Shown: positions 3,557 to 6,917 of the stretch, piece after piece | Position numbering within the stretch: the stretch's first letter is position 1 | Layout of the letters: each line of letters starts with the position of its first letter | Assembly (NCBI GenBank): GCA_027023115.1 | Contig: JALVWZ010000402.1 | Location: 1 to 24,891 of the forward strand | Length of the DNA: 24,891 nt | Source of the DNA: Thermaceae bacterium | GTDB taxonomy: Bacteria > Deinococcota > Deinococci > Deinococcales > Marinithermaceae | Direction: 5' to 3' | Notes under the pieces: generated by a model | Database searches by the model: none | Told to the model about the DNA's origin: nothing | What the model saw: the letters and a program-made list of their open reading frames with translations, nothing else | Made by a program: the position numbers and the translations under genes

Positions 3557-3859
3557 CTAGGGCAGCGCCAACCTTCGCGCTTTTCGCGGCTGGCGGCGGG
3601 CGAGCAGCCTGCCCAGCAGGTTGCGGCGCGGGTAGTAAGCGTTGCGGTAGACATCGAGAGCCTTCAGCCAGAGGTTCAGGCGGGCGGCCTGGGGGTGGTT
3701 CACCCGGCGCAGGCGTGCGTGGGCGTAACGGATCTCGGCCTCGAGGCGGTCCAGGCCGCGCCGGCCCTCGCGGTTGTCCACTTCGATGAGCAGGTTGAGC
3801 ATTTCTCCGGGGAGCGTCCGGGCGGGGCTCTGGAAAAGGCGTTGAATGCGACTGTTCAT
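3557..3859 (-). CDS. Small basic helical protein, predicted DdrO-controlled damage-response gene
   Basis: 100 residues, not recognised. It appears almost wholly alpha-helical and very basic, with many Arg (AEIRYAHARLRRVNHPQAAR, YYPRRNLLGRLLARRQPRKA) and no signal peptide or membrane segment, so nucleic-acid or protein binding is plausible. The ATG at 3859 follows a strong AAGGAGG (5 nt spacing). Its promoter TTGCGT-N17-TACCAT has a 17-bp palindrome, TTATGTTACCATCATAA, centred on the -10 box; this resembles the Deinococcus damage-response operator bound by DdrO. It is divergent from ddrO itself. I infer that it is repressed by DdrO and induced when IrrE cleaves DdrO; its biochemical job is unknown. 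Confidence 0.75.
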   Translation of the reverse strand: MNSRIQRLFQSPARTLPGEMLNLLIEVDNREGRRGLDRLEAEIRYAHARLRRVNHPQAARLNLWLKALDVYRNAYYPRRNLLGRLLARRQPRKARRLALP

Positions 3860-3875
3860 AAAAACCTCCTTGTGA

Positions 3876-3892
3876 TTATGATGGTAACATAA
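3876..3892. promoter_or_regulatory. RDRM-like 17-bp palindromic operator (predicted DdrO site)
   Basis: On the minus strand the site reads TTATGTTACCATCATAA: perfect inverted ends TTATG-N7-CATAA. The Deinococcus radiation/desiccation response motif, as I recall it, is TTATGTCATTGACATAA; the first six and last five bases agree. It covers the -10 of the minus-strand small gene (3881-3886), so occupancy would block transcription. The ddrO gene starts 84 bp away. Confidence 0.7.
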
Positions 3893-3909
3893 TATACGGT
3901 ATTACGCAA
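3881..3909 (-). promoter_or_regulatory. Promoter of the small gene 3557-3859
   Basis: On the minus strand TTGCGT (3904-3909) and TACCAT (3881-3886) are separated by exactly 17 bp, followed by AAGGAGG and ATG. The -10 box sits in the middle of the palindromic operator. Confidence 0.6.
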
Positions 3910-3923
3910 GCGGGAGAGCAAAG

Positions 3924-3959
3924 TTATGTATTGACCGAATATCTTTAAGGTAGTAGCAT
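3924..3959 (+). promoter_or_regulatory. ddrO operon promoter with partial operator (possible autoregulation)
   Basis: TTGACC (3931-3936) and TAGCAT (3954-3959) are 17 bp apart, upstream of AGGGAGG and the ATG at 3977. The -35 overlaps TTATGTATTGACC (3924-3936), which matches the first part of the damage-response motif if one base is skipped; the second half-site is poor. DdrO is known to repress its own gene in Deinococcus, so a weak autoregulatory site would make sense. Confidence 0.6.
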
Positions 3960-3976: not shown

Positions 3977-4369
3977 ATGACTCTAGCGGAACGCTTTCGC
4001 GAGCTGCGCAAGGAGCGCGGCTGGCGCCTGAAGGACGTGGCCGAGGTTACCGGGCTTTCCATCCCCTACCTATCCGACCTGGAACGCGACCGCACCAACC
4101 CCAGCCTGGAAACGCTGCGGACGCTTGCCGAAGCCTACGAGATGACCGTGCACGACCTGATGGCGCCGGTCGATTTTTACGGTCAGCGCACGGCGGCGGC
4201 GTTGCCGCGCGGCCTGGCGGAACTCTTGGAAGACCCGGTCTTGGGAGCCGAGCTGACGCCCGACTGGGTCGAGACGCTTTCGCGCATCGAACTGCGCGGC
4301 AAGCGGCCGGAGAGCAAGCGCGACTGGTACGAGATATATCTCCACTTGAGGCGCGTTTTGGAGGGCTAG
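3977..4369 (+). CDS. ddrO: DdrO-type XRE-family repressor of the DNA-damage response
   Basis: 130 residues, the same length as Deinococcus DdrO. Residues 6-60 form a XRE helix-turn-helix ([40 protein letters not shown]); residues 75-130 match the DdrO dimerisation domain ([47 protein letters not shown]). In Deinococcus the protease IrrE cleaves DdrO between Leu106 and Arg107; here L106-R107 falls at the same place. The immediate downstream gene is an IrrE-like protease, which starts directly after the stop. Own promoter and ribosome site (AGGGAGG) are clear. Assignment rests on remembered family sequence and on context; very likely a true DdrO. Confidence 0.9.
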
Positions 4370-5095
4370 GTGGAGCAGGCGCGGACGGCGCTCGAGGAGC
4401 GGGTGCTGGAGCTGGCGGCTGCATACCGCCGCCATAACCGGCCGCTAACGCCCGCGCGATTGGCTGCGGGCATCGGTTACCGCTGGCGGGAGGCCCCGCT
4501 AGCGGGCCGGGACGGCCTGCTGGAGCCGCGCTCGCGCACCATTTTGGTGGCTGCCGAACAGTCGCCGGCGCGGCAGCGCTTTACCCTGGCCCACGAGGTA
4601 ATGCACCACCTGATCGAACAAGACGGGGAGCTACTTTCGGAGCTGCACGAGGCCTACGAAGGGCGGGCGCTGGAGGCGGCTTTGGAGCGACTTTGCAACC
4701 TGGGGGCGGCGGAGATGCTGCTGCCGCGGCAGGAGTTGCGGCGGGCGCTGGCGCAGGCGGGGCCGAACCCGCGGCTGGTGTGGGAGCTGGCCGGCCGCCA
4801 CGGCGTCAGCGAGGCGGCGGCGGCCGTCGGGCTGGCTACGGCGCTGGGGCCGCGGGCGCAGGTGGCGGTCTGGGGTGGCAGGCCGCTGCGCCTTTACTTT
4901 GCCTTCGGCGCGGCGGCGCCGACGCGGGGGCTGGTTCTTAGCACTAATCACCCACTGGCGGCGGTGGCGAGCACCGGCCTGCCGTTGCGAGAGGCCATGG
5001 AGTTGCCGGGGGGTGGCGCAGGCCGGGCCTGGGTCCGCCCCTGGCGGGGGCGGGTCTACGTGGTGGCGCTCGAGGTGACTGCCGGTGCCGGCTAA
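4370..5095 (+). CDS. irrE: IrrE/PprI-type zinc metalloprotease, activator of the damage response
   Basis: IrrE is the damage-activated peptidase that cleaves the repressor DdrO. The 241-residue protein has the zinc motif HEVMH (H75, E76, H79), with E106 as likely third ligand, 31 residues after H75 as in Deinococcus IrrE, followed by AAEMLLP typical of COG2856 peptidases. Residues about 130-160 resemble a helix-turn-helix (VWELAGRHGVSEAAAAVGLA) and the C-terminal 75 residues could be the GAF-like sensor domain, so all three IrrE domains may be present although the protein is somewhat shorter than Deinococcus IrrE. GTG start abuts the ddrO stop. An ordinary ImmA-type toxin/antitoxin or phage protease is less likely given the DdrO partner. 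Confidence 0.87.
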   Translation: MEQARTALEERVLELAAAYRRHNRPLTPARLAAGIGYRWREAPLAGRDGLLEPRSRTILVAAEQSPARQRFTLAHEVMHHLIEQDGELLSELHEAYEGRALEAALERLCNLGAAEMLLPRQELRRALAQAGPNPRLVWELAGRHGVSEAAAAVGLATALGPRAQVAVWGGRPLRLYFAFGAAAPTRGLVLSTNHPLAAVASTGLPLREAMELPGGGAGRAWVRPWRGRVYVVALEVTAGAG

Positions 5096-5825: not shown

Positions 5826-6211
5826 GAGCGCTGGTGCGGTCACCGGCGGGGCGCGTGCTGATCGTCAGGACCAGCAAGTGGCACGGCCGCTGGGGAGTGC
5901 CTGGGGGCAAGGTCGAGTGGGGCGAACGGTTGGAAGACGCCCTGCGGCGCGAATTCGCGGAGGAGGTGGGGCTGGGCCTTTCCGCCGTTCGCTTCGCACT
6001 CTTTCAGGAGGCGGTCTTCCCGCCCGATTTCTACGAGCCGATGCACTTTTTGCTCTTCAACTACTTTGCCCAGACCGGCGGCGAAGAAGTGCGGCCCAAC
6101 GAGGAGATCCTCGAGTGGGCCTGGGTGGAGCCGGCGGCGGCGCTGACGTATCCTCTGAATATGTACACGACGCCGCTCGTGGAACGATACCTGGAGGCCC
6201 AGGGTGACTAG
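5792..6211 (+). CDS. Nudix hydrolase
   Basis: 139 residues. Nudix enzymes hydrolyse nucleoside diphosphates linked to another group (damaged nucleotides, nucleotide sugars, ADP-ribose). The Nudix box is complete: G39, E45, R53-E54, E57-E58, G60 (GKVEWGERLEDALRREFAEE then VGL). The ATG at 5792 was chosen because it places the conserved IPTVGALV strand at the N-terminus; it overlaps the upstream transferase by 34 bp, while the frame itself stays open much further upstream. PTVGALVRSPAGRVLIVR followed by WGVPGG is typical of small ADP-ribose/8-oxo-dGTP-type members. Next gene overlaps by 8 bp. Substrate unknown. Confidence 0.88.
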   Translation: MEANRYPIPTVGALVRSPAGRVLIVRTSKWHGRWGVPGGKVEWGERLEDALRREFAEEVGLGLSAVRFALFQEAVFPPDFYEPMHFLLFNYFAQTGGEEVRPNEEILEWAWVEPAAALTYPLNMYTTPLVERYLEAQGD

Positions 6212-6917
6212 GGCGGCCCTGGTTACCGGAGCCGCTCGCGGCATCGGGCGGGCGGTGGCGCTGGGGCTGGCCGGGTGCGGCTTCGACGTGGCGGTTCACT
6301 ACCGCTCCAGCCGCAAGCAGGCCGAGCAAACCGCAGCCGAAATCCGCCGCTTGGGGCAGCGAGCCACCCTGGTGGCCGCCGACCTGGTAGACCCCGCTCA
6401 AGCTCAGCAGGTGGTAGACCTCGCCGCGAAGCGCCTGGGAGGGCTGGCGGTATTGGTGAACAACGTGGGCGACTACCTCTACAAGCCCATCGAGATGCTG
6501 GGCGCCGAGGAATGGCGCTACGTGCTCGACTCGAACCTCAATACCGCCTTCAATACCACCCAACCGGCGCTACCGCATCTGCTAGGCAACGGTTGGGGGC
6601 GGGTAGTCTTCATTGGTTACGCCGGCGCCGGCCAGATGGTCAGCAAGCCGCACATCACCCCTTACTTCATCGCCAAGACGGGGCTGATCCTTTACGCCCG
6701 GGCGCTGGCGGCGCGGCTGGCGGCGCGCGGAGTTACCGTCAACGTGGTAGCGCCGGGGATAGCCGAAAACTCGATGACCCAGCCGCTGGAGGAGGTTCCA
6801 CTGGGGCGGGCGGCCTACCTGCAAGAAATCGTGGACGCGGTCTGCTACTTCGTTTCCGACAAAGCCGAGTACGTCACCGGTCAGGTGCTCGAGGTGGCGG
6901 GCGGCTGGAACCTTTAG
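6204..6917 (+). CDS. SDR-family oxidoreductase, possibly pterin-related
   Basis: 237-residue short-chain dehydrogenase with Rossmann motif TGAARGIG (8-15), NNVGD (86-90, in place of NNAG) and catalytic Y154-x3-K158 (YFIAK). The usual catalytic Ser, 13 residues before the Tyr, is Gly141 (FIGYAGAG), so the active site is non-standard. GTG start overlaps the Nudix stop by 8 bp; folE follows 8 nt downstream. Adjacency to GTP cyclohydrolase suggests a pterin or dihydromonapterin reductase (FolM/PTR1-like, which also lack the Ser), but the sequence is also compatible with a 3-oxoacyl-ACP reductase-like enzyme. Confidence 0.85.

Follow-up and report, generated by a model that had tools for sequence, protein, structure and literature searches.

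Does the 17-bp palindrome between a gene for a DdrO-type repressor and a divergent 100-residue gene serve as an operator through which DdrO controls that small gene, and, if so, how far does the same control extend in this organism and its relatives? The locus lies in the draft genome of a Thermaceae bacterium (G000; 2.02 Mb in 435 contigs, 85.5% complete), of which one entire contig, 24,891 nt in length, constitutes the window analyzed here (Table 1).

Table 1. Features of the ddrQ-ddrO-irrE locus, in window coordinates
Feature	Position	Strand	Basis
ddrQ ortholog, 100 aa, AAGGAGG at 3865–3871 before start	3557..3859	-	homologs divergent from ddrO; profile reaches Deinococcus 83- to 87-aa proteins
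Predicted DdrO operator (RDRM), ddrQ promoter	3876..3892	-	of 35 ddrO loci, 30 have exact TTMYG-N7-CRKAA here and 32 a site within one mismatch
Predicted -10 box of ddrQ, TACCAT	3881..3886	-	operator positions 7–12; TANNAT at those positions in 26/35 loci
Predicted -35 box of ddrQ, TTGCGT	3904..3909	-	17 bases from -10; read from sequence
Second, imperfect predicted DdrO operator over ddrO -35, TTATGTATTGACCGAAT	3924..3940	+	2 mismatches to general pattern; absent from first-pass annotation
Predicted -35 box of ddrO, TTGACC	3931..3936	+	read from sequence
Possible third, weak operator over ddrO -10, TTAAGGTAGTAGCATAA	3945..3961	+	1 mismatch; absent from first-pass annotation
Predicted -10 box of ddrO, TAGCAT	3954..3959	+	17 bases from -35; read from sequence
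ddrO ortholog, 130 aa, RIELRGKR at residues 103–110	3977..4369	+	aligns with solved DdrO over its full length, E 8.8e-60
irrE ortholog, 241 aa, HEVMHH	4370..5095	+	matches 8slm and 3dte; Peptidase_M78

The palindrome and the genes that flank it

The palindrome (plus strand, TTATGATGGTAACATAA; minus strand, TTATGTTACCATCATAA) has the 17-bp length and the TTATG/CATAA-type ends of an RDRM, with the outer five bases of its arms pairing perfectly and 6 of 8 positions paired in total. It is the sole exact copy of TTATG-N7-CATAA in the window, with 0.005 expected when the window is modeled as a first-order Markov chain; at the two-mismatch level, the window holds 2 sites versus a shuffle mean of 2.24, and there is no surplus. 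The first-pass annotation had placed the palindrome on the -10 box of a minus-strand promoter (TTGCGT-N17-TACCAT), and this arrangement is present, the -10 box occupying operator positions 7 to 12. The Deinococcus motif to which it likened the palindrome, TTATGTCATTGACATAA, is the D. radiodurans ssb site as printed in Table 2 of PMC8533742 and agrees with the palindrome at 12 of 17 positions.

The DdrO-type repressor gene that was said to lie beside the palindrome is real and encodes a full-length DdrO ortholog: residues 1 to 128 align with 6jq1/6rmq (E 8.8e-60), taking in the HTH as well as the C-terminal dimerisation domain that is specific to DdrO. Its closest named relatives are in Thermaceae metagenome genomes and Meiothermus (near-identical records were possibly omitted from this comparison). 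IrrE cleaves the 129-residue DdrO behind residue 106 and so strips off its final 23 residues; the corresponding motif, RIELRG[KR]R, occurs in all 35 DdrO orthologs examined, suggesting at the sequence level that these proteins can be cleaved. The GTG start of the window's irrE is at the base right after the ddrO stop, and its product contains an M78 metallopeptidase domain with HExxH. IrrE has a C-terminal GAF-like domain; the best structure alignments of the window's protein span residues 6 to 167 of 241. Downstream of ddrO, an IrrE-like HExxH frame is found in 27 of 35 stretches examined; this frame abuts ddrO in the 7 genomes of f1, and in the 18 f4 loci that have it the motif lies 480 to 1,312 bases downstream. 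Farther along the window (6204–6917, plus strand), downstream of irrE, is a short-chain reductase that scores above the NCBIfam cut-off for dihydropteridine/dihydrofolate reductase TmpR (347 versus 325 bits). According to the available part of PMC8072749, homologs of DdrO and of IrrE occur in Oceanithermus, Marinithermus, Meiothermus, and Calidithermus but not in Thermus.

The divergent gene had been presented as new, which did not hold up: it is best called an ortholog of the already described Deinococcus ddrQ, an assignment drawn from profile matches to Deinococcus proteins and from the published description of Deide_20580. The 100-aa protein matches proteins named Oceanithermus, which, with the named relatives of the DdrO, marks the organism as Oceanithermus-like. 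A profile of the Thermaceae-side proteins has matches in 31 of 111 genomes of the phylum, every one of them among the 35 with DdrO and every one beside ddrO on the opposite strand. With G022 added by eye, ddrQ is found in 32 of the 35 genomes with DdrO versus none of the 76 without, although the initial search scored at most 45 candidates per genome, so that a copy elsewhere may have been missed. A broader profile picks up two sizes of Deinococcus protein, 83 aa (P0078) and 87 aa, and alignment of the Thermaceae-side and Deinococcus-side profiles by hhalign gives a probability of 98% (E 2.2e-13).

As described in the available portion of PMC5552922, Deide_20580 is ddrQ of D. deserti, an 83-aa protein of unknown function encoded divergently from ddrOC, which falls in the top group of radiation-induced genes and whose induction is IrrE dependent; ddrQ is listed there in 6 of 7 Deinococcus species, the entry for D. 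radiodurans in Table 4 being blank. In the same study, DdrO shifted the ddrO-ddrQ intergenic fragment in vitro, and the shift was gone after incubation with active IrrE, the fragment being the whole intergenic region of D. deserti and not that of the present organism. The first-pass description of a small basic protein is correct for this genome (pI 11.8) but does not extend to the family, two Deinococcus members of which have pI values of 9.9 and 6.8. A 332-aa reading of ddrQ exists in Meiothermus luteus. In G001, a Rad52-family (DdrA-like) gene (L127, 1255–1860, minus strand) lies directly after ddrQ on the same strand and would thus come under the operator of ddrQ.

Conservation of the two predicted operators across the phylum

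Upstream DNA was read for all 35 DdrO-bearing genomes. On the ddrQ side, exact TTMYG-N7-CRKAA is present in 30 of the 35 loci, versus 0.2% of mononucleotide shuffles, and a site with at most one mismatch is present in 32, versus 3.1% of shuffles. The third positions change as pairs, C-G replacing A-T in 2 of the 35 loci, and a TANNAT -10 box sits at operator positions 7 to 12 in 26. A palindrome arising by chance would be unsurprising at the two-mismatch level, where sites are expected in a window of this size; the conservation in 30 loci, the paired changes, and the other exact sites before repair genes of the genome (see below) make this explanation next to negligible. Judged by its conservation, the site at 3876–3892 is a DdrO operator (RDRM).

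On the ddrO side, the second site, TTATGTATTGACCGAAT, corresponds to the motif printed for D. radiodurans ddrO, TTCTGTATTGACCGTAG. Such a site is exact in 10 of the 35 loci and has at most one mismatch in 31, the window's own genome being among the other four; these sites were chosen by their TTGAC, so the conservation of TTGAC within them is by construction. The possible third site, over the ddrO -10 box, has no equivalent at that spacing in the other genus members compared. The gap between the ddrQ-side and ddrO-side operators measures 47 to 52 bp in 33 of 34 loci, the exception being G025, whose site is poor; G027, in which gene and site are lost, was left out of this count.

So regular a spacing is what would be expected if the ddrQ-side site were a distal operator for DdrO autoregulation only, acting through cooperative binding or looping to the ddrO-promoter site about 49 bp away and leaving ddrQ uncontrolled, a reading also favored by G031 and G020, in which the operator is kept and ddrQ is absent. 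Against it, the operator core lies on the ddrQ -10 box in most loci (26 of 35); G027 has lost ddrQ, its flank, and the ddrQ-side site, yet ddrO's own site stays; and ddrQ is radiation induced in D. deserti (available part of PMC5552922). We regard control of ddrO alone as improbable and favor an operator that would act on ddrQ. In G031, the gene divergent from ddrO, across the retained operator, encodes a protein with an Lrp/AsnC ligand-binding domain (PF01037; L131, 2085–2417, plus strand).

The predicted DdrO regulon and its relation to LexA

Scanning with the stricter pattern TTAYG-N7-CRTAA returned three exact sites in the window's genome, versus none with the reversed control: one overlaps the ddrQ -10 box, one lies 8 bases before a rarA-like frame, and one lies 12 bases before a gene for a Y-family polymerase. 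Across the genus (6 genomes), there are 34 sites versus 6 for the control, of which 23 are at ddrQ, ddrO, rarA, the polymerase, or nurA; of the 32 sites inspected (the remaining 2, in G005, are not among them), 9 further sites have no recognisable repair gene. The site precedes rarA (in G006, a frame of only 97 aa) and the polymerase in 6 of 6 genomes each and nurA in 4 of 6. Most of these genes were assigned by eye from their N-terminal residues, with a Pfam check of one example each of the polymerase, the rarA-type ATPase, NurA (weak, E 8.5e-6), RuvB, RecX, GyrA, and CinA; the polymerase has an intact SIDE motif and can be aligned with structures of Pol IV. A short protein that begins with a signal-like segment is encoded divergently from rarA across a shared operator region (L004, 1044–1451, minus strand; similar frames in L078, L087, L095, and L097) and has no Pfam or NCBIfam match.

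Relatives have additional sites at gyrA (G015 and G017), ruvB and recX (G017), and dnaE (G014 and G017, by eye). At cinA, a gene of the recA operon, the site is exact in G001, G014, and G017 and carries one mismatch in G015 and two in G016. Within the genus of the window, cinA has no site with at most one mismatch in any of the 5 readable upstream regions; two-mismatch matches occur in 2 of the 5 (G003 and G004), and the cinA match of the window's own genome was partial. The check proposed in the first-pass annotation, a genome scan for RDRM-like sites before repair genes, is passed by the exact sites before rarA and the polymerase; of the genes that it named, recA is represented by cinA of its operon, which has a site in some relatives and none with at most one mismatch in this genus. 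Its central proposal, a DdrO-type operator on the promoter of the divergent gene, gains in silico backing from conservation and from the exact sites before repair genes.

The same strict pattern is in excess in family f4 (158 sites versus 51 for the control in 22 DdrO-bearing genomes) and shows no excess in the DdrO-less genus of that family (8 versus 10 in 26 genomes), which we infer to be Thermus. It also shows no excess in f3 (35 versus 88 in 4 DdrO-bearing genomes, G022 to G025), where the reversed control, AATRC-N7-GYATT, is itself strongly over-represented and perhaps marks a repeat family. Looser scans gave no excess over the control, unlike the stricter pattern in the genus and in f4, and were dropped as regulon evidence: a one-mismatch scan of G000 yielded 14 sites versus 11, and TTMYG-N7-CRKAA in 7 genomes yielded 7 to 23 versus 21 to 32. 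Rad52-type genes were likewise rejected as regulon members: 6 of 11 genomes yielded a total of 8 matches, of which a single one, in G001, adjoins ddrQ, and within the stretches examined no site at the one-mismatch level or better precedes the other seven.

A Y-family polymerase under such an operator raises the question of whether another regulator, such as a LexA-type repressor, binds the site and the neighboring ddrO is incidental, given that LexA controls Y-family polymerases in other bacteria. The window's genome, however, has no LexA match at E 0.001; the strict-pattern excess appears in DdrO-bearing f1 and f4 genomes and not in the DdrO-less f4 genus; and both the motif and its places fit the experimentally mapped Deinococcus DdrO motif (PMC8533742). 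Binding by a different regulator is accordingly very improbable, and DdrO is retained as the predicted ligand of these sites.

Across the 111 phylum genomes, counted by hand, a strong LexA match (E at most 1e-15) is present in 4 of the 35 that have DdrO versus 52 of the 76 that lack it, such that strong LexA matches and DdrO are largely mutually exclusive; another 20 of the 35 show weaker matches, most of them partial, so that a divergent LexA may be present there, and the LexA family cut-off was passed by only 7 of the 111 genomes. Of the three DdrO genomes without visible ddrQ, two (G027 and G031) are among the four with strong LexA matches. Together with the SIDE-bearing polymerase and the Rad52-family gene behind ddrQ in G001, the LexA distribution supports a damage response that DdrO would run. 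The available part of PMC8072749 places the D. deserti translesion cassette under LexA and RecA; error-prone repair may be wired differently here, because the translesion-type polymerase carries a predicted DdrO operator. We lean slightly toward a broader scenario in which, on the Oceanithermus/Marinithermus/Meiothermus side, DdrO-IrrE replaced the LexA SOS response and, with it, the mutagenic arm of that response, with polymerase, RarA, and NurA under DdrO operators and with DdrQ as a dedicated circuit component that exists only together with DdrO.

A proposed circuit and its Deinococcus counterparts

Very probably, the palindrome is a DdrO operator that would repress ddrQ by covering its -10 box, as part of a DdrO-IrrE damage circuit that includes distant members. 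A DdrO dimer produced from the divergent gene would bind the palindrome and would also bind the second, poorer site over its own -35 box; because both sites would be bound, ddrQ and the ddrO-irrE operon would be repressed together. Upon DNA damage, IrrE would cut free DdrO behind residue 106, the repressor would be lost, and ddrQ, ddrO-irrE, rarA, and the Y-family polymerase (in relatives, also nurA, cinA, gyrA, and ruvB) would be derepressed until new DdrO restored repression. The analysis establishes the sites and how they are conserved and placed, the orthology of DdrO, IrrE, and DdrQ, the exact RDRM-like matches before repair genes, and the co-occurrence of ddrQ with DdrO; that DdrO binds, represses, and is cleaved in this organism, and that the genes are induced, is what we infer. 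As for DdrQ itself, a role in tuning the DdrO-IrrE circuit has about an even chance of being correct and is favored over a direct repair role, which we hold to be somewhat less probable, because ddrQ is found only where DdrO is and always beside its gene.

The locus resembles ddrOC-ddrQ of D. deserti (Deide_20570/Deide_20580), as far as the available part of PMC5552922 describes it, in gene order, orientation, the small homologous protein, an RDRM on the ddrQ side, and a DdrO with a conserved cleavage motif. It differs in that its DdrQ is longer (100 versus 83 aa) and more basic, that irrE directly follows ddrO, and that the predicted regulon holds a Y-family polymerase, rarA, and, in relatives, nurA, which that part of the source does not list for Deinococcus. 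The D. radiodurans DdrO/RDRM regulon (PMC8533742) likewise has a 17-bp motif, TATGYYHTTARCRKA, with sites near -35 and -10 boxes, and shares ddrO, cinA, gyrA, and ruvB with the predicted set; unlike that set, its Table 2 contains neither rarA nor a Y-family polymerase.

The open-access literature that we searched holds no report of ddrQ or a DdrO regulon in Oceanithermus, Marinithermus, Meiothermus, or Calidithermus. Apparently new are the occurrence of ddrQ and of a predicted DdrO regulon beyond Deinococcus, the finding of ddrQ solely in genomes with DdrO, a predicted DdrO operator on the gene for a translesion-type polymerase, and the scarcity of strong LexA matches among DdrO-bearing genomes. 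The DdrO-IrrE damage response, which has been studied in Deinococcus, would extend to thermophilic relatives, where the predicted regulon gives it concrete members. The small protein DdrQ stands out by its tie to DdrO throughout the phylum, and its function is directly testable. The order of a repressor gene followed by a peptidase gene, with protease-driven derepression, recalls the ImmR-ImmA type XRE repressor/M78 peptidase pairs of mobile elements (as given in the available part of PMC8072749); unlike in those pairs, the window's repressor is orthologous to DdrO from end to end, and chromosomal repair genes are preceded by exact sites.
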